This document shows positions 12,670-50,247 of a stretch of 64,000 nt of DNA, in pieces. Origin of the DNA: Actinoplanes lobatus. GTDB lineage: Bacteria > Actinomycetota > Actinomycetes > Mycobacteriales > Micromonosporaceae. The notes below the pieces were generated by a model. That model was not told where the DNA came from. It saw nothing but the letters and a program-made list of their open reading frames with translations, and made no database searches. The stretch covers positions 7,064,501 to 7,128,500 of the forward strand of contig NZ_JACHNC010000001.1 in assembly GCF_014205215.1 (NCBI RefSeq). Direction: 5' to 3'. The translations under genes were made by a program, and so were the position numbers. Position 1 is the stretch's first letter, and every line of letters starts with the position of its first letter.

Positions 12670-13005
12670 ATGAACCAGAAGCGAAGGCTGGTGGCGCTCT
12701 TCTTGGCGAGCGCCGCGGCCACAACAATCGGGCTCGCCGGGGCGCGGCCGGCCTCGGCCGTGGCAGAGTCGGCCTTTCTGACGATCCGTTCGCAGGGCGG
12801 CGGCAACTATTCGCTCACCGTGACTGGTCATCGAAAATCTTCCGTGGAAAACCCCCGGCTTTAGCCGTGGGGAGGAAACGGGACTCCTGCGGAGCAGGTC
12901 AGGGATAGCCGATCCGCCGTCGAGGCGGATGGGCGTCTGGTCGGACGTTGCGCTGGTTCTCCACATGCCTCTTCACGGTCTCCAGGGTCGTTGGGCTGCG
13001 CGGGT

Positions 13006-14238
13006 ATGGTGTCTGATGTGGATGAGACGGTGCGTTACACCTATCGCCTGCGGCCTGGCCGTATCGCGGAGGCCGCACTGCTCGGCGAGTGGGGCCGCTG
13101 CCGGTGGCTGTGGAACGAAGCCGTCCACCAGCAGAGGACTCGCCGCAAGCCGACGTTCGGCAAACTGTCCAAGCTGCTGACCGACGCCCGCGGCCGCAAC
13201 GCCTGGCTGCGGGGCGGTTCCCAGGTCGCCCAGCAGCAGACATTGCGCACCTACGGCACCGCCCTGGATCACTCGTTCACGGTGAAGGGCCGGGGCCGTC
13301 CGAAGGTCAAGCGGCTGAAGGACTCGCTGCCCAGCCTGGAATACACCACTCGTGGCTTCTCGATCAAGGGCGGCCGGCTCCGCCTGCCGGACAAGGTCAC
13401 GATCCCGGTCGTCTGGTCCTGGGAACTGCCGTGCGAACCGTCCAGCGTGCGGGTCTACCGTGACAGCCTCGGGCATTGGTACGCCTCGTTCGTGGTCCGT
13501 CGGGACACGATCGGCACACCCGGGGCGGACCTGCCCGGCATCGGCATCGACTGGGGCGTGAAGGTAACCGCCACCACGACCGATCCCGCGTTCGACCTTC
13601 CGCACCTCGGACATCGCAAACGGTGCGCTGCTGAACTGGCCAAATCCCAGCGCAGGATGGCCCGCCGCCGCCGACCGAAGGGCCAGCCGCAGTCGAAGGG
13701 CTACCAGACCGCGAAGCGGCAGGCCGCCCGGGTAGCGAAGAAGGCGGCCCGGCAGAACACCCACGACGCCCGGGTCTGGGCCAAGAACGTCACCGAGCAT
13801 CACAGTTTGATCGCTGTGGAGGACTTCAAACCGACGTTCCTTGCCAAGACGACGATGGCCCGCAAGGCCGCTGACGCGGCGATCGGCGCGTGCAAGCGAG
13901 AACTTGTCGAGCGTGGTATGCGGGCGGGCCGGAAGGTGGTGCTGGTGCCGCCCGCCTACACCACGATGACCTGCTCCGCGTGCGGCGAGAGAGCCAATCA
14001 CCGCCTCGGACTGGGCGTACGCATCTTCGAGTGCACAGCCTGCGGTTACACCGCCTGCCGTGACCTCAACGCCGCGAGGACGATCCTCGCCACGGCTGAA
14101 CGCGACCGTGCCAGTGCCGACGACGTGAGACATCTGATCGCCTCCTTCCGGGATGGTGGATCAGGTGCGGTCCGAGCTGAGAATCCAGGGCCTTGCCCCG
14201 GAGGGAAATCCCCCGGATTCATCCGTGGGGATCGTTAA
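13006..14238 (+). CDS. tnpB: TnpB, RNA-guided nuclease-type protein (IS copy 1)
   Basis: 410 residues from ATG at 13006; an alternative GTG at 13018 matches the start of copy 3. N-terminal HTH-like region (LGEWGRCRWLWNEAVHQQ), a RuvC-like fold with GIDWGVK and IAVEDFKP, and a zinc ribbon CSACGERANHRLG...CTACGYTA, then RDLNAART. In the family D-E-D of these motifs cut DNA beside a TAM under guidance of an omega RNA made from the element's right end. Copies 2 and 3 read TADRDLNAA but this one TACRDLNAA; the Asp of RDLN remains. The TAA stop is the last three bases of the element. Confidence 0.9.
   Translation: MVSDVDETVRYTYRLRPGRIAEAALLGEWGRCRWLWNEAVHQQRTRRKPTFGKLSKLLTDARGRNAWLRGGSQVAQQQTLRTYGTALDHSFTVKGRGRPKVKRLKDSLPSLEYTTRGFSIKGGRLRLPDKVTIPVVWSWELPCEPSSVRVYRDSLGHWYASFVVRRDTIGTPGADLPGIGIDWGVKVTATTTDPAFDLPHLGHRKRCAAELAKSQRRMARRRRPKGQPQSKGYQTAKRQAARVAKKAARQNTHDARVWAKNVTEHHSLIAVEDFKPTFLAKTTMARKAADAAIGACKRELVERGMRAGRKVVLVPPAYTTMTCSACGERANHRLGLGVRIFECTACGYTACRDLNAARTILATAERDRASADDVRHLIASFRDGGSGAVRAENPGPCPGGKSPGFIRGDR
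14100..14238 (+). ncRNA. Predicted omega RNA scaffold, copy 1
   Basis: In studied IS200/IS605 elements the guide RNA spans the tnpB 3' end and right end, with the guide being the flanking host sequence. This stretch is strongly conserved in all three copies and can form hairpins (CCCCGGAGG...CCCCCGG). The guide would start at 14239 (TTCAATCTGCC). The 5' limit is a guess. Confidence 0.35.
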
Positions 14239-41946: not shown

Positions 41947-42080
41947 TTAACGATCTCCACGGATGAATCCGGGGGATTTCCCTCCGGGGCCAGGCCCTGG
42001 ATTCCCAGCTCGGACCGCACCTGATCCACCATCCCGGAAGGAGGCGATCAGATGTCTGACGTCGTCGGCACTGGCACGGT
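41947..42080 (-). ncRNA. Predicted omega RNA scaffold, copy 2
   Basis: Same conserved right-end segment as copy 1; the guide would start at 41946 reading minus (AAGGACCGTTCGCC). The 5' limit is a guess. Confidence 0.35.
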
Positions 42081-43179
42081 CGCGTTCAGCCGTGGCGAGG
42101 ATCGTCCTCGCGGCGTTGAGGTCACGGTCTGCGGTGTAACCGCAGGCTGTGCACTCGAAGATGCGTACGCCCAGTCCGAGGCGGTGATTGGCTCTCTCGC
42201 CGCACGCGGAGCAGGTCATCGTGGTGTAGGCGGGCGGCACCAGCACCACCTTCCGGCCCGCCCGCATGCCACGCTCGACAAGTTCTCGCTTGCACGCGCC
42301 GATCGCGGCGTCAGCGGCCTTACGGGCCATCCGCGACTTGGCGAGGAACTTCGGCTTGAAGTCCTCCACAGCGATCAGGCTGTGATGCTCGGTGACGTTC
42401 TTCGCCCAGACACGGGCGTCGTAGGTGTTCTGCCGGGCCGCCCTCTTCGCGATCCGGGCGGCTTGCCGTTTCGCGGTCTGGTAGCCCTTCGACGGCGGCT
42501 GGCCCTTCGGCCGGCGGCGGCGGGCCATCCTGCGCTGTGCTCTGGCCAGTTCAGCCGCGCACCGTTTGCGGTGGCCGAGGTGCGGCAGGTCGAACCGGGG
42601 GTTGGTGGTGGTGGCGGTCGTGGTTACGCCCCAGTCGACGCCGATACCGGGCAGGTCCGCCCCGGGTGTGTCGATCGTGTCCCGACGGATTACGAACGAG
42701 GCGTACCAATGCCCGAGGCCGTCGCGGTAGACCCGCACGCTGGACGGGTCGCACGGCAGCTCCCGGGACCACACGACCGGGATCGTGACCCTACCCGGCA
42801 GGCGAAGCCGACCGCCCTGGATCGAGAAGCCCCGAGTCGTGTACTCCAAACTCGGCAACGCGTCCTTGAGCCGCTTGACCTTCGGACGGCCCCGCCCCTT
42901 CACCGTGAACCAATGGTTCAGGGCCGCCCCGTAGGTGCGCAGCGTCTGCTGCTGGGCGACCTGCGACCCGGCCTGCAGCCAGGCGTTACGGCTCCGAGCC
43001 TCGGTCAGCAGCTTGGACAGTTTGCCGAACGTCGGCTTGCGGCGGGTCCTCTGCTGGTGGACGGCTTCGTTCCACAGCCACCGGCAGCGACCCCACTCGC
43101 CGAGAAGTGCGGCCTCCGCGATGCGGCCGGGCCGCAGGCGGTAGGTGTAACGCACCGTCTCATCCACATCGGACACCAT
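41947..43179 (-). CDS. tnpB: TnpB (IS copy 2)
   Basis: 410 residues, nearly identical to copy 1 (differences such as TEARSRN for TDARGRN and GVDWGVTTTA for GIDWGVKVTA). RuvC motifs GVDWGVT, IAVEDFKP, TADRDLNAA and the zinc ribbon CSACGERAN...CTACGYT are all intact, so this copy keeps every expected catalytic residue. TAA at 41947 is the element end. Confidence 0.9.
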   Translation of the reverse strand: MVSDVDETVRYTYRLRPGRIAEAALLGEWGRCRWLWNEAVHQQRTRRKPTFGKLSKLLTEARSRNAWLQAGSQVAQQQTLRTYGAALNHWFTVKGRGRPKVKRLKDALPSLEYTTRGFSIQGGRLRLPGRVTIPVVWSRELPCDPSSVRVYRDGLGHWYASFVIRRDTIDTPGADLPGIGVDWGVTTTATTTNPRFDLPHLGHRKRCAAELARAQRRMARRRRPKGQPPSKGYQTAKRQAARIAKRAARQNTYDARVWAKNVTEHHSLIAVEDFKPKFLAKSRMARKAADAAIGACKRELVERGMRAGRKVVLVPPAYTTMTCSACGERANHRLGLGVRIFECTACGYTADRDLNAARTILATAERDRASADDVRHLIASFRDGGSGAVRAGNPGPGPGGKSPGFIRGDR

Positions 43180-43466
43180 ACCCGCGCAGCCCAACGACCC
43201 TGGAGACCGTGAAGAGGTATGTGGAGAACCAGCGCAATGTCTGACCAGACGCCTATCCGCCTTGACGGCGGATCGGCTATCCCTGACCTGCTCCGCAGGA
43301 GTCCCGTTTCCTCCCCACGGCTAAAGCCGGGGGTTTCCACGGAAGATTTTCGATGAGACGGTCATGGGTTTCCTCGTCGGGCCGTGGCTGGCCCAGGCCG
43401 TACGCTCGGCTGTTGATCTTTCGCTGGCCGAGCATCTGGCGGGACGGCAGCCAGCTGAGGGGGCGG

Positions 43467-43521: not shown

Positions 43522-44025
43522 TCAGAAGTTGTACCACTGCTGGTTGGTCCGGTAGTGGCAGGTCCGTGCCGCGATGATGTTCGACCCGCCGAACGGCGCG
43601 TCCAGGCAGGGCCCGGTGCCGTTGTAGCTGCGATAGGCGTTGCCGGGACCGATGTAGACGATCTGCCACCGCTGACTCGTCGCGCCGCGGCACAGGCTCA
43701 CGACCAGGTGATCGGAATTGCGGTCGGGCTGTTCCAGGCACATGTTGTCCGACCCGTACCTGGCGACCAGGTAGTAGCTGTTCAGGCTCGGGTTGGCGGG
43801 CACGAACAGCCACTCGTGGCTGTAGTCGCACTCACCCAGGACCGGGACGCCGCCGGACGGGTTGTAGTCGGTGCAGTAGTAGTCGTTGTAGGCGCTCTGG
43901 AGGTACATGGGGTTGTACGCGGCGTTCGCCGGGGACGCCATGCCTGCCAGCGCCCCGATCAGCGCCATGATCACCAGCGTGATCCCGGCGGCGGCCCGCC
44001 GGCGCGGCACCTCTGTGTCGATCAC
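43522..44025 (-). CDS. Secreted ricin-B-like lectin-domain protein
   Basis: 167 residues from GTG at 44025 with AAAGGGG upstream. Signal peptide (AAAGITLVIMALIGALAGMA, cut near ANAAY), then a single beta-trefoil of about 130 residues. QxW-type repeats are seen as SQRWQIV and NQQWYNF, with paired Cys (NMCLEQ..SLCRG, GPCLDA..RTCHY) as in ricin-type domains. It should bind sugars outside the cell; no catalytic domain. Its upstream region carries element U (44061-44124), shared with the secreted-protein gene at 47985. Confidence 0.8.
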   Translation of the reverse strand: MIDTEVPRRRAAAGITLVIMALIGALAGMASPANAAYNPMYLQSAYNDYYCTDYNPSGGVPVLGECDYSHEWLFVPANPSLNSYYLVARYGSDNMCLEQPDRNSDHLVVSLCRGATSQRWQIVYIGPGNAYRSYNGTGPCLDAPFGGSNIIAARTCHYRTNQQWYNF

Positions 44026-44060
44026 TGTTCTGTTCCCCTTTCATCGGCTGACTGGCCCCC

Positions 44061-44124
44061 TGTCTAGTGGCGCGGCCGTTGTCTGGCTCCCGCTCGAACC
44101 GGCAAGACAAACAACCCTGGACAA
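44061..44124 (-). promoter_or_regulatory. 64-bp shared upstream element, copy U
   Basis: Read on the minus strand: TTGTCCAGGGTTGTTTGTCT, then AGACAAC and ending CTAGACA. It matches 47875-47938 at 53 of 64 positions without gaps. It contains two direct TTGTC units and one inverted GACAA. It ends 35 bp before the lectin start and lies 54 bp before the STAND gene start on the other strand, so it could serve both. Confidence 0.75.
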
Positions 44125-44178
44125 CGCAGAGACAATTGACGATGGATGTGGCGGTGGTGCGGAGGGAGGCCGGGGGAG

Positions 44179-47100
44179 ATGCCGAGGCCGGAGCGACCCT
44201 TGGACGACCTTGCCGGCCCGGCCGCCGATCTCGCTGCTGAGCTGCGGAAACTGCGGGACAGGGCGGGCCGGCCGGGCTATCGGCAGATGGCCGCACGGGT
44301 CAACTACTCGGTCGCGACGTTGTCCGCGGCCGCGTCGGGCCGCAGGCTGCCGACCCTGGAGGTGACCCTCGCCTACGTCGCCGCGTGCGATGGCGACCCG
44401 GTCGAATGGGAGCGGCGCTGGCGGCAGGCGGAACGCCTCGGCACGACGCCGCCCGGGGATCAGGCGAACGGGAACGCTCCCGTGCCGTACCCCGGGCTCG
44501 TGACCTTCCAGGCCGGCGACGCGGAACTCTTCTTCGGGCGCGCCGCCATGGTGGCCGACCTGGTGCGGCGGCTCGGGCAACGGCGATTCCTGACCGTGTT
44601 CGGCCCGTCGGGCGCCGGCAAGTCGTCGGTCGTGCGCGCGGGACTGGTCCCCGCCGTCGAAGGGCCCGCGCTGGTGCTGACACCGGGCGCGCATCCGATG
44701 GCGGAACTGGCGGTGCACCTGGCACGGGTCGCAGGTGTGCCCGCCGGTGGGCTGCTGGACGAGCTGCGCGAGGATCCGGCGCGTGCCGGCCTCCTCGTAC
44801 GGCAGAGCCTGTCCGGCGTACCCCCGGAAATTGATCTTCTGATCGTGGTGGATCAATTCGAGGAGGTCTTCGCCGGCGGGGTCGACGCGGGGGAGCGGGC
44901 GGATTTCGTGGCCGCGCTGCTGGCGACGTGCCGGGAACCGGGCGGCCGGGCCCGGGTGGTGCTGGTGGTGCGCGCCGACCACTACGCCCGGTTCGCGGAG
45001 TACCCGCAGCTGCTGGCCGTGCTCAGCGACGCGCAGGTCCTGATCGGCGGGATGAGCCCGGCCGAGCTGCGGGAGGCGGTGACCCGGCCCGCCGAACGCT
45101 GCGGCGCCCGGGTGGAGGGCGCGCTGGTGGCCACCATCGTGGCCGAGGTCAGCGGCTCACCGGGCGCGCTGCCGCTGGCCGCGCACGCGCTGCGCGAGGC
45201 CTGGCGCCGGCGTCAAGGCGCGATCGTCACCCTCGCCGGCTACCAGGCCGCCGGTGGCGTGGCCGGGTCGGTCGCTCACACGGCCGAGCAGGCGTACGAG
45301 GCGCTGTCCGGCCCCGAACGGCACGCAGCCCGGCAGACCCTGCTGCGGATGGTCGACGTCGGACCGGACGGGCTGGTCACCCGCCGGCGGCTGGGTCGCG
45401 CCGAACTGGACACGATCGTGGGGGCGCCCGCGGTGATCGACACGTTCACGGCCGCACGGCTCGTCAGCGCGGACCGCGACACCGTGGAGATCGCGCACGA
45501 GGCCCTGATCCAAGCCTGGCCGCGACTGCACGGCTGGGTCGAGGAGAGCCGCGCCGGGCTGCGGCTGCACCGCCTGCTCACCGAGGCAGCCGCCGCATGG
45601 GAGTCGCTCGGCCGCGACGAGGGCGCGCTGTACCGTGGCCCACGACTGTCGGCCGCGGCTGAGGCGGCGGACCTGCGGGTCATCGACCTGACCGGCCCGG
45701 AACGAGACTTCCTGGAGGCGGGCCGCGCACTTCACGACCGCGAGCAACGGGTACGGCGTAGGCGTACCCGAATTCTGGTCTTCGGTCTCGTCGCGGTCCT
45801 CGCGCTGGTGTCGACGGCCGCGGTAGTCGCGGTGGTGTCCGCCCGGCGTGCCGAGGCCCAGCGGATCCGGGCCGTCGCCGGACAACTGGCGGCGGGTGCC
45901 CGGGCCGAACGGATGACCGATCCGGAGCTGGCGCTGCTGCTGGCGCGACGGGCCTACCAGGTTCATCCGGATCCCGAGACCGAGTCGGTGCTGCGGCAGG
46001 CCACCGCCGACGCGCGCTCGATCCGCACGATGGACGCGCACCGGGCGGAGGTGTCCTCGCTCGCCGTCAGCGGCTCCACCGTGGCCGACGTGGACCTCGA
46101 CGGCGTGGTCAAGGTGTGGGATCTGGACAGCCCAGCGCCGCCGGTCACCGCCCCCACGTCCGGCGGCGCCGTCGATCTCGGCCCCGACGGGCGGCTGGCG
46201 ATCGCGAGCTCGGACCCGGGACTTCCGGTGGGCCGCGTGGTGCTGTGGCGGCCGCGGGACCCGGGTCCCCCACGTCTGCTGCGGCCGTTCATACCCGCCG
46301 GAGTCAGTGAGGTCGCCTACAGCCCGGACGGCCGCTGGGTCGCCGCGATCAGCGCGAACTCTCACGTCTACCTGTGGAACACCACACGGGACGGGCCGGG
46401 GCGGCGCTTTCGTTCCAGCGGCCAGGACACCGATCTCGCCTTCGGGCCGGGTGGGCGACTGGCCGTCGCCTCATTCGACGGCACCGTCCGCGTGTGGGAC
46501 GTCGACGGCACGGATGCACCTGCCGTGCTTCGCCAGCCGGCGGGCGCCCATCCTGTTGCGGTCGCCGTCAGCCGCGACGGCAACCGGATCGCGGTCGCCG
46601 GAACGGAGCAAGTCACGGTCTGGCCGGCGGACGGGCGCGGCGAACCGGAGATCCATCGCGGGCCCGAGCACTCCTACCTCAGTGTGGCGTTCAGCCCCGA
46701 TGGGCGTCGTGTCGCCGCGGGCACCAGCGAACGTACCGTGCGGATCTGGGGTGACGGCGACACATCGGACGGGCTGGCGATGCGCGGGCATCGCGGGCCT
46801 GTACGGCAGGTGGCGTTCAGCGCGGACGGTCGCCGGCTGCTGTCCGGCAGCGACGACACCACCGTGCGCGTCTGGGACACCTCCGGGGCCGCCGACCCCG
46901 CACTGATCGCCCTTCCCGCATCGGCCGGCGGCCCGGCAGCGCTCAGCCGTGACGGCGCCTTCACGGTGGCGGGCACGATCTCGGTCTTTCCCACCCGTAC
47001 GCCCGGCGACGCCACCGAGTTGCGCAACGTCCCAGCGGGCCGGCTGTTCTCCGCCGTCAGCGCGGACGGGCGCAGCGTCGCGTCCGCCAACCTCGACAGC

Positions 47101-47838
47101 GAGCAGATCCACTGGTGGAGAGACGTCACCGGCGAACCCACGGTTGTCGAATGCACGCGCCGGCCGGGCGAGGTCACCGTCAACGCCGTCGCCTTGAGCG
47201 ACAACGGACGAGAACTCGCCGTCGACTGTGGCAACGACGAGATCCTGTGGTCTGCCGGCGACGGGCATGCCGCCGTCCGCATCGACGGCCACGGCCCGAT
47301 CGCCGTCAGCCGGGACCTCATCGCGATCGCGATGGCGAACAGCGTGGTGCTGTGGGAACCGGCCACCGGCGGGCTGGTCCGGACCTTGAAAGGCCAGAAC
47401 GGACGCGCGGACCAGGTGCGGTTCTCCGCCGAGGGCGACCGGATCGCCGTCGCCGGCGACGACGGCGCGATCCGGATCTGGCCCGTCGCCCAGGACCACG
47501 ACCCGGTCGTGCTCACCGGCACCGTCGGCAGGACCGTGGCGATGAGCTTCAGCCCCGACGGCAGGCTGATCGCCGCCATCGGCACCGACAACGTCGTACG
47601 CCTGTGGCACACCGACGGCAGCGGCGAACCCGTGACCTTCGACCACCCCGCCGAAGCCCGCCAACTCGAATTCAGCGCCGACGGCCGCAGCATCATCACC
47701 CTGTACGGCACGACGGTCCGGATCACGCCGTGCGAGGTCTGCGGCCCGGTCGGTGAAGTGGTCGCGCTCGCTGGACAGCGCGTGACCCGGGACTTCACCG
47801 CGCGGGAGAGCGCGAAGTACCTTCGCGAACCCGGATAG
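44179..47838 (+). CDS. STAND NTPase with N-terminal HTH, membrane helix and WD40 propellers
   Basis: 1219 residues from ATG at 44179 (GGGGGAG upstream). Order: XRE-like HTH (about 10-80; YRQMAARVNYSVATLSAAASG); nSTAND1 NTPase (about 110-450) with Walker A GPSGAGKSSVVRAGL, Walker B LLIVVDQFEEVF and IAHEALIQAWPRL winged-helix part; one membrane helix (about 532-556, FGLVAVLALVSTAAVVAVV); and a C-terminal WD40 region (about 615-1215) with at least ten blades ending in motifs such as VKVWDLD, VRVWDTSG, IRIWPVA. STAND proteins are ligand-triggered switches. Here HTH and propeller lie on opposite sides of the membrane helix. It sits between two secreted-protein genes sharing the 64-bp element. Confidence 0.9.
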   Translation: MPRPERPLDDLAGPAADLAAELRKLRDRAGRPGYRQMAARVNYSVATLSAAASGRRLPTLEVTLAYVAACDGDPVEWERRWRQAERLGTTPPGDQANGNAPVPYPGLVTFQAGDAELFFGRAAMVADLVRRLGQRRFLTVFGPSGAGKSSVVRAGLVPAVEGPALVLTPGAHPMAELAVHLARVAGVPAGGLLDELREDPARAGLLVRQSLSGVPPEIDLLIVVDQFEEVFAGGVDAGERADFVAALLATCREPGGRARVVLVVRADHYARFAEYPQLLAVLSDAQVLIGGMSPAELREAVTRPAERCGARVEGALVATIVAEVSGSPGALPLAAHALREAWRRRQGAIVTLAGYQAAGGVAGSVAHTAEQAYEALSGPERHAARQTLLRMVDVGPDGLVTRRRLGRAELDTIVGAPAVIDTFTAARLVSADRDTVEIAHEALIQAWPRLHGWVEESRAGLRLHRLLTEAAAAWESLGRDEGALYRGPRLSAAAEAADLRVIDLTGPERDFLEAGRALHDREQRVRRRRTRILVFGLVAVLALVSTAAVVAVVSARRAEAQRIRAVAGQLAAGARAERMTDPELALLLARRAYQVHPDPETESVLRQATADARSIRTMDAHRAEVSSLAVSGSTVADVDLDGVVKVWDLDSPAPPVTAPTSGGAVDLGPDGRLAIASSDPGLPVGRVVLWRPRDPGPPRLLRPFIPAGVSEVAYSPDGRWVAAISANSHVYLWNTTRDGPGRRFRSSGQDTDLAFGPGGRLAVASFDGTVRVWDVDGTDAPAVLRQPAGAHPVAVAVSRDGNRIAVAGTEQVTVWPADGRGEPEIHRGPEHSYLSVAFSPDGRRVAAGTSERTVRIWGDGDTSDGLAMRGHRGPVRQVAFSADGRRLLSGSDDTTVRVWDTSGAADPALIALPASAGGPAALSRDGAFTVAGTISVFPTRTPGDATELRNVPAGRLFSAVSADGRSVASANLDSEQIHWWRDVTGEPTVVECTRRPGEVTVNAVALSDNGRELAVDCGNDEILWSAGDGHAAVRIDGHGPIAVSRDLIAIAMANSVVLWEPATGGLVRTLKGQNGRADQVRFSAEGDRIAVAGDDGAIRIWPVAQDHDPVVLTGTVGRTVAMSFSPDGRLIAAIGTDNVVRLWHTDGSGEPVTFDHPAEARQLEFSADGRSIITLYGTTVRITPCEVCGPVGEVVALAGQRVTRDFTARESAKYLREPG

Positions 47839-47874
47839 ACCGGTGTCGCGTCCCGGGCGTTCCCGAGTGGGCAG

Positions 47875-47938
47875 TTGTCCGGAGTTGTTTGTCTGACCGC
47901 TCCGAGCAGGGGCCAGACAACCTCCGCGCCGCTAGACA
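47875..47938 (+). promoter_or_regulatory. 64-bp shared upstream element, copy D
   Basis: TTGTCCGGAGTTGTTTGTCT ... CCAGACAAC ... CTAGACA, same order and spacing as copy U but inverted in the genome. It starts 37 bp after the STAND stop and ends 46 bp before the secreted-protein ATG. TAGACA could serve as a -10. Confidence 0.75.
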
Positions 47939-47984
47939 CATACCCCGTAAGCCGTACGGTCTATCACTCGGAAACGGGAGAACC

Positions 47985-48416
47985 ATGAACACACTCAAGA
48001 TCATCGGCGTGGCCGGGCTGGCCGTCATGCTGCTGGGGGCACAACCGGCGGCTGCCGCACCGACCGAGGGCGCAGCACGAGCCCAGGCGGCGACGGCCGA
48101 AACGCCGAGGGCTGACGCGACGCGGACGGTGCACGCTGGCACGGCACAGCACGCCCTCGCGGGCTGGCTCGGCAGCTGTTACGTTTCCCGCTACAGCACG
48201 TACGCCGGCGGCTGGTGCGACGGGAACGGTCCGGACTGGACATACCAGGGCACGGTCAGATGCGGGAACAACCCCGGGTACATCAATAACGGCCCCACCC
48301 GCTGGGCCGGCGACCGCCGAGGCTCGTACTCTTCATGCCCCTCTGGCACGAGCGCGGCCCGGGGAGGCGTCGACGTCTTCTATCAGGGCTCGTACCAGAC
48401 CAGCTTCCTGGTGTGA
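47985..48416 (+). CDS. Small secreted Cys-containing protein
   Basis: 143 residues from ATG at 47985 (GGGAGAA upstream). Signal peptide (KIIGVAGLAVMLLGAQPAAA), a pro-like Ala-rich stretch to about residue 60, then a compact domain with four Cys (GSCYVS, GWCDGNGP, VRCGNN, SSCPSG), presumably two disulfides, and the motif GPTRWAGDRRGSYSSC. This kind of secreted protein recurs in actinomycetes without known function; bacteriocin-like or surface roles are guesses. It carries element D upstream and a strong terminator downstream. Confidence 0.8.
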   Translation: MNTLKIIGVAGLAVMLLGAQPAAAAPTEGAARAQAATAETPRADATRTVHAGTAQHALAGWLGSCYVSRYSTYAGGWCDGNGPDWTYQGTVRCGNNPGYINNGPTRWAGDRRGSYSSCPSGTSAARGGVDVFYQGSYQTSFLV

Positions 48417-49026: not shown

Positions 49027-50247
49027 GTGGACGAGACGGTGCGTTACAGCTACCGCCTGCGGCCCGGCCGCATCGCGCAGGCCGCACTTCTCGACGAGTG
49101 GGGCCGCTGTCGGTGGCTGTGGAACGAAGCCGTCCACCAGCAGAGAACCGGCCGTAAGGCGACGTTCGGCAAACTGTCCAAGCTGCTGACCGAGGCTCGC
49201 AGCCGCAACGCCTGGCTGCGCGCCGGGTCGCAGGTCGCCCAGCAGCAGACGCTGCGCACCTACGGCACCGCCCTGGACCATTCGTTCACGGTGAAAGGCC
49301 GGGGCCGTCCGAGGGCCAAGCGGCTCAAAGACGCGCTGCCGAGCTTGGAGTACACGACTCGGGGCTTCTCGATCAAGGATGGCCGACTTCGCCTGCCGGG
49401 TAGGGTTACGATCCCGGTCGTCTGGTCCCGGGAACTGCCGTCCGACCCGTCCAGCGTGCGGGTCTACCGTGACAGTCTCGGGCATTGGTACGCCTCGTTC
49501 GTGGTCCGTCGGGACACGGTCGGAACACCTGGGGCGGACCTGCCCGGCATCGGTGTCGACTGGGGTGTGAAGGCGACCGCCAACACGACCGATCCGGCGT
49601 TCGATCTGCCGCACCTCGGGCATCGCCGACGGTGCGCGGCTGAACTGGCGAAAGCGCAGCGAAGGATGGCCCGCCGCCGCCGGCCGAAGGGCCGGCCGCA
49701 GTCGAAGGGCTACCAGCAGGCCAGGAAGCAGGCCGCCCGGGTAGCGAAGAAGGCCGCCCGGCAGAACACCCACGACGCCCGGGTCTGGGCGAAGAACGTC
49801 ACCGCGCATCACAGTTTGATCGCCGTGGAGGACTTCAAGCCGAAGTTCCTTGCGAAGTCGCGGATGGCCCGTAAGGCCGCTGACGCGGCGATCGGCGCGG
49901 CGAAGCGAGAACTTGTCGAGCGTGGCATGCGGGCGGGCCGGAAGGTGGTGCTGGTGCCGCCCGCCTACACCACGATGACCTGCTCCGGGTGCGGCGAGAG
50001 AGCCAATCACCGCCTCGGACTGGGCGTACGAGTCTTCGAGTGCACGGCCTGCGGCTACACCGCAGACCGCGACCTTAACGCCGCGAGGACGATCCTCGCC
50101 ACGGCTGAACGCGACCGTGCCAGTGCCGACGACGTCAGACATCTGATCGCCTCCTTCCGGGAGCGTGGATCAGGTGCGGTCCGAGCTGGGAATCCAGGGC
50201 CTGGCCCCGGAGGGAAATCCCCCGGATTCATCCGTGGGGATCGTTAA
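49027..50247 (+). CDS. tnpB: TnpB (IS copy 3)
   Basis: 406 residues from GTG at 49027. RuvC residues D178 (GVDWGVK), E268 (IAVEDFKP), D349 (RDLNAA); zinc ribbon C319/C322/C339/C342. More diverged from copies 1 and 2 than they are from each other (CSGCGE, GYQQARKQAA). TAA is the element end. Expected to be an RNA-guided nuclease that cuts at TCAT-flanked targets matching its guide. Confidence 0.9.
   Translation: MDETVRYSYRLRPGRIAQAALLDEWGRCRWLWNEAVHQQRTGRKATFGKLSKLLTEARSRNAWLRAGSQVAQQQTLRTYGTALDHSFTVKGRGRPRAKRLKDALPSLEYTTRGFSIKDGRLRLPGRVTIPVVWSRELPSDPSSVRVYRDSLGHWYASFVVRRDTVGTPGADLPGIGVDWGVKATANTTDPAFDLPHLGHRRRCAAELAKAQRRMARRRRPKGRPQSKGYQQARKQAARVAKKAARQNTHDARVWAKNVTAHHSLIAVEDFKPKFLAKSRMARKAADAAIGAAKRELVERGMRAGRKVVLVPPAYTTMTCSGCGERANHRLGLGVRVFECTACGYTADRDLNAARTILATAERDRASADDVRHLIASFRERGSGAVRAGNPGPGPGGKSPGFIRGDR
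50110..50247 (+). ncRNA. Predicted omega RNA scaffold, copy 3
   Basis: Right-end segment conserved with copies 1 and 2; the guide would begin at 50248 (TGCGCGTGCCC). The 5' limit is a guess. Confidence 0.35.

Follow-up and report, generated by a model that had tools for sequence, protein, structure and literature searches.

The genome of the soil actinobacterium Actinoplanes lobatus (10.4 Mb) contains, between the genes for two predicted secreted proteins, a gene for a large protein with a helix-turn-helix domain (HTH), an nSTAND1 NTPase, a predicted transmembrane segment and WD40 repeats, and upstream of each of the two neighbours there is a copy of one and the same 64-bp block. The question is what this block is doing there. 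The answer suggested by the window (the whole stretch of 64,000 nucleotides which we analysed) and by the genomes of relatives is that the block is quite probably an operator-promoter, bound by the HTH of the HTH-nSTAND1-WD40 protein, which would in this way switch on the two predicted secreted-protein genes.

The two copies (44061-44124 read on the minus strand, 47875-47938 read on the plus strand) align without gaps and are identical at 53 of 64 positions (83%, E 4.2e-12 genome-wide). When the two 200-bp flanks are compared, no pair of 64-mers scores above this 53, while the best scores in 300 shuffles averaged 30.6 and reached 36 at most. In a profile search of its own genome these two are the only full copies, the next match having an E of 0.15. 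The match noticed in the initial annotation is therefore confirmed, and so is its statement that the copies have the same orientation and similar distances (35 and 46 bp) to the starts of the two secreted-protein genes; the domain order which it had read in the intervening gene and the secretion of both neighbouring products are borne out by the Pfam matches, the hydrophobic segment and the signals called by script in Table 1. The consensus of the aligned copies is cGTTGTCCagnGTTGtTTGTCtGaccnccncGagCaGGggCcAGACAACncncncGccgCTAGACAg (capitals: 90% or more). Its geometry is as follows: arm 1 lies 14 bp after box 1, an inverted arm closes a span of 31-32 bp, and a TA comes 11-12 bp later. The aligned copies of the element show no evident -35 hexamer.

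Table 1. The locus in window coordinates (feature, position, strand, evidence)
Secreted ricin-B-like lectin gene, candidate target 1	43522..44025	-	GTG start 44025; PF00652 E 1.1e-7; script-called Sec-type signal
Element copy 1	44060..44126	-	alignment, profile search, shuffles
Copy 1 box 1 GTTGTCC	44125-44119	-	
Copy 1 arm 1 TTGTCT	44110-44105	-	
Copy 1 inverted arm CCAGACAAC	44086-44078	-	
Copy 1 -10-like TAGACA	44066-44061	-	
STAND gene leader, adjoining copy 1	44127..44178	+	GACAAT/GACGATGG block conserved among aligned STAND-linked copies
HTH-nSTAND1-TM-WD40 protein gene, proposed regulator, 1219 aa	44179..47838	+	Pfam domains, hydrophobic segment, Walker motifs
XRE-like HTH domain, residues 17-78	44227..44412	+	PF13560 HTH_31 E 3.9e-9; five-helix model; XRE-like structural neighbours
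nSTAND1 NTPase domain, residues 103-481	44485..45621	+	PF20703 E 3.2e-117
Single hydrophobic (predicted transmembrane) segment, residues 532-550	45772..45828	+	sequence prediction
WD40 repeat region, about residues 709-1178, proposed sensor	46303..47712	+	PF00400 and related propeller models
Element copy 2	47873..47939	+	alignment, profile search, shuffles
Copy 2 box 1	47874-47880	+	
Copy 2 arm 1	47889-47894	+	
Copy 2 inverted arm	47913-47921	+	
Copy 2 -10-like TAGACA	47933-47938	+	
Secreted four-Cys protein gene, candidate target 2	47985..48416	+	script-called secretion signal

The four-Cys protein belongs to an unnamed family of 77 proteins (E <= 0.001) with the common motif GGWCDGNGPD..RWAGDRR, and neither it nor its family has a Pfam match; those members whose sources name an organism are actinobacterial. 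The window also holds three TnpB-type (OrfB_IS605/Cas12f1-like TNB) genes, at 41947-43194 (-), 49027-50247 (+) and 12991-14238 (+), whose proteins are mutually 90-92% identical. The insertion sequences of the first two, in opposite orientations and about 91% identical, bracket the lectin-STAND-four-Cys module.

Since the alignment of homologues sets in at MPRPERPLDD, the STAND gene most likely starts with the ATG at 44179 and not at 44146, the start of the longer open reading frame. The nSTAND1 match covers positions 1-378 of the 379 of the profile, and the Walker motifs are intact (Walker A GPSGAGKS at residue 142, Walker B-like LIVVDQFE at residue 221). Pfam, the structural model and the structural neighbours agree on an XRE-like fold for the HTH, the top neighbour of the model being RodZ, tied with XRE regulators. 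The Pfam search of residues 1-102 returned HTH_31 and HTH_3 and no SARP or BTAD family, which places the protein outside the SARP/AfsR family, and no PADLOC model of anti-phage defence matched at E <= 0.01. The home genome has one gene of the same HTH kind (E <= 1e-12) and two nSTAND1 genes. From the single predicted transmembrane segment we infer that the WD40 part lies outside the membrane; positive charges flank this segment on both sides, and therefore the charge rule does not settle the topology. A class of 702-aa HTH-nSTAND1 proteins without WD40 match was also seen (L132, L136, L140, L174), and in three loci it goes with a variant of the element that has a longer spacing and contains AAGCAAGACAAC.

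How far does the element follow this protein? With blastn, matches were obtained in 16 of 67 genomes of the genus (own genome included), of which three short ones (G007, G017, G057; E 0.004-0.009) are probably due to chance. A profile built from 23 aligned copies, using sequence only, finds the element in 30 of the 67 at E <= 0.1 and, at E <= 1e-3, in 40 of 354 genomes of Micromonosporaceae, belonging to 10 of 44 genera. We fetched the stretches around strong and middling matches, and nhmmer on these 61 sequences gave 67 element places: 42 are at most 300 bp from the start of a related HTH-nSTAND1 gene, and 25 are solo. Wherever an HTH start lies at most 300 bp from an element, and this includes the remnants in L035 and L052, it diverges from the element and is on the box-1 side, so that the element points away from the gene. 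The HTH (E <= 1e-20) is present in 39 of the 40 genomes with the element versus 103 of the 314 without it (Fisher, 2.5e-16). The sole exception is G062, where a broken HTH adjoins the element (L035); this means that among the 212 genomes without the HTH at this threshold a single one has the element, and it has an HTH remnant as well. For 17 of the 25 solo places the fetched stretch holds no HTH gene, but each of the 10 genomes in question has one at another place.

Conversely, among the 20 HTH genes of the family list with at least 74% identity, 18 have a divergent linked element. The two others are those of G042 (78% HTH identity), which has only a weak element on the 3' side of the STAND gene, pointing back, and of G094, whose STAND gene lacks the element while two unlinked copies precede predicted secreted proteins, one with a peptidoglycan-binding-like sequence and one resembling I36 proteins. 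A second copy directly 3' of the STAND gene, as in the window, is also found in G059 (L039), G180 (L164) and G295 (L173). The upstream element is absent from the HTH-STAND genes of L179-L182 (64-68% HTH identity); by eye L179, L181 and L182 have a different upstream block in common (AATCCGAC..GCGATGCTGG-like), which is perhaps another class of operator. A decayed HTH-STAND remnant adjoins the element in L035 and L052 (G025). The former yielded no call of an intact secreted frame downstream of the element, and in the latter a secreted gene remains. Such remnants beside working-looking elements suggest that decay of a divergent STAND gene can be one way to a solo copy.

The same arrangement can be followed further out. 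From 80 HTH loci of many genera and the loci of the family we obtained 137 distinct readable HTH-STAND genes, 72 of which have an inverted TTGT..ACAA of span 31/32 within 300 bp upstream, versus 19 of 540 control genes (P 1e-40); the motif is missing in the other 65. The histogram of spans has peaks at 31-32 and at 45-46, the latter fitting the presence of box 1. Box 1 stands 14 or 15 bp from arm 1 in 41 of the 72 motif-bearing genes, and a TA follows the ACAA after 11-12 bp in 61 of them, against a background of 2%. The half-site itself varies (TTGTCTG, TTGTCCG, TTGTTCG, TTGTTCA, TTGTGCG), and the two arms tend to vary together: their agreement at letters 5-7 is 0.74, 0.61 and 0.67, versus 0.42, 0.47 and 0.45 after permutation (n=72, kinship ignored). 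Letter 5 of box 1 agrees with each arm at 0.76 and 0.80 versus 0.46 and 0.42 (n=41, kinship ignored), and its letters 6 and 8 show no agreement with the arms beyond permutation (n=41). When only the 35 unique arm pairs are kept, the trend is clear for letter 5 alone (0.69 versus 0.43). Once the rest of the HTH is taken into account, differences in the recognition helix do not improve the prediction of the half-site (partial r 0.02, p 0.28). As to a putative specific binding of this DNA by the HTH, the operator boxes co-occur with HTH-STAND genes and drift together, but no residue-to-base code has emerged.

What the element precedes was judged by a blind script, which picked genes by codon-position GC and applied a simple rule for Sec signals; 9 of 71 places were uncallable. 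A Sec-type signal was called in 39 of 62 callable downstream genes versus 65 of 469 other callable genes of the same stretches (P 6e-16), and 23 of the 62 failed the rule. In the wider loci outside the family, where the picking of genes is crude, there is no clear excess: secretion was called in 12 of 29 callable cases with the motif versus 7 of 28 without. The downstream proteins are small and mutually unrelated. In 43 chosen cargo proteins Pfam found Ricin_B_lectin (7), RicinB_lectin_2 (6), Inhibitor_I36 (7), BTRD1 (4), PG_binding_1 (2), SH3_3 (2), CHAP (1) and M23 (1). Three further matches, to CDtoxinA, are weak (best E 9e-4); this family shares the ricin-type trefoil, and we do not read these proteins as toxins. 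Some downstream products do not look secreted by eye: a multi-TM protein in four genomes (L150, L156, L158, L160), a MauE-like protein (L040), a sirtuin-like one (L166) and an XRE/NB-ARC-like protein after the 3' copy of L039, at 9028.

According to the initial annotation, the TTGTC/GACAA units are bound by the NTPase or by a factor under its control, and the two exported effectors are thereby regulated together. As judged from comparison of sequences, binding by the NTPase and joint regulation of exported proteins gain support from the tracking of the HTH by the element, the kept geometry, the co-changing letters and the enrichment in secretion. It had also called the module self-contained, which holds for the home genome, with its one HTH gene flanked by both copies, but not for relatives with copies far off. 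Finally, it had counted a motif occurring widely before unrelated genes as evidence against itself: the cargo genes are indeed mutually unrelated, but their genomes carry the STAND gene.

A mechanism may be outlined from these features. At rest the NTPase would be ADP-bound and monomeric, as is general for STAND proteins; again by analogy with these, exchange for ATP and oligomerisation would be triggered by a ligand bound to the WD40 propeller, whose place would be outside the membrane provided that the N-terminus is inside, and an oligomer with several HTH domains could fill the three half-sites. If the TA marks the -10, the centre of the dyad falls near -41, where class II activators sit (operators centred near -41.5), and binding there would recruit RNA polymerase; with no evident -35, class II activation would then fit. 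The STAND gene may also regulate itself, since copy 1 lies 53 bp before its start. The circuit of the home genome would comprise one regulator and two exported proteins, while in other genomes the regulator would reach further cargo genes in trans.

Other readings of the element have to be weighed. Another transcription factor, or a sigma factor, might read it, with the STAND gene as a co-target and not the regulator, and the recognition helix, taken alone, indeed does not track the half-site; we hold this to be distinctly unlikely, because a regulator of a general kind would not keep so closely to a single HTH-STAND family that, where the HTH is missing at E <= 1e-20, the one genome left with the element has its remnant. 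The inverted pair around the STAND gene of the window, bracketed in turn by the two similar TnpB-type insertion sequences, brings to mind the terminal inverted repeats of a mobile element carrying this gene. That the sole copy is at the STAND start side in most relatives, that the spacing stays fixed and promoter-like while the letters drift, and that solo copies precede secreted genes makes such an origin hardly credible.

It is also conceivable, though in our opinion unlikely, that the HTH-STAND protein acts on the element as a repressor, keeping the secreted genes and itself off until a signal arrives. Many XRE-type regulators repress, the -35 region would be overlapped by the boxes, and the two genes on either side of copy 1 diverge. 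On the other side, a good -35 is not evident in the aligned copies, the known STAND regulators MalT and AfsR activate, and the dyad near -41 has the position which passages of PMC10936776 quote for class II activator promoters. Activation by the HTH-STAND protein is thus the reading which we prefer.

HTH-nSTAND1-WD40 proteins recur in many actinobacterial genera, and neither an operator nor a target of theirs turned up in the searched excerpts of open-licence PMC papers. With an operator defined, a family without known output would become a testable family of regulators; the element names candidate targets (exported lectins, inhibitors and wall-binding proteins) and is a ready reporter for finding the ligand of the WD40 part. 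We see an even chance that the proteins with N-terminal XRE-HTH and nSTAND1 across Actinobacteria (Actinoplanes, Streptomyces, Lentzea, Amycolatopsis, Actinomadura, Nonomuraea and others) together make up a single class, large and unrecognised, of membrane-anchored STAND transcription switches, where each reads a co-drifting three-box operator of its own and thereby drives exported proteins that change fast (lectins, I36-type inhibitors, wall binders): an NLR-like sensor whose output would be secretion rather than cell death.

Membrane-bound one-component regulators of the CadC/ToxR type have a cytoplasmic HTH, one transmembrane segment and an outer sensor in one chain, which is the layout inferred here; theirs is a winged HTH, without NTPase switch or WD40, whereas the home protein has an XRE-like HTH, an NTPase and WD40 repeats. 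MalT, the STAND activator of maltose genes in E. coli, resembles our protein in that a STAND NTPase is joined to an HTH, and it acts on several operator boxes. It is described as oligomerising under its inducer, a step whose counterpart here would be the one outlined above. MalT has a C-terminal LuxR-type HTH, a TPR sensor, no transmembrane segment and targets in sugar uptake; unlike it, the present protein has an N-terminal XRE-like HTH, one predicted transmembrane segment, WD40 repeats and predicted secreted targets.

The nearest actinobacterial parallel is AfsR, the SARP-NOD-TPR activator of Streptomyces, in which, as here, an N-terminal DNA-binding domain is placed on a STAND-type NTPase. 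Its promoter is poor in the -35, a likeness to our element, and its operator is centred at -29.5, class II CAP sites being at -41.5 (passages of PMC10936776). AfsR differs by its SARP fold, direct repeats and TPR sensor, and its operator is not the three-box TTGT one. The nSTAND/AP-ATPase conflict systems (Kaur et al. 2020, PMC7159879) and the DGR-diversified nSTAND1 sensors (Dore et al. 2024, PMC10907252) have the NTPase family and multicellular hosts in common with our system but, in passages of these two papers, differ in that effector domains are described on or beside the NTPase, in place of an operator driving secreted genes. If our reading is true, a branch leading from transcription to secretion would be added to the STAND/NLR theme.
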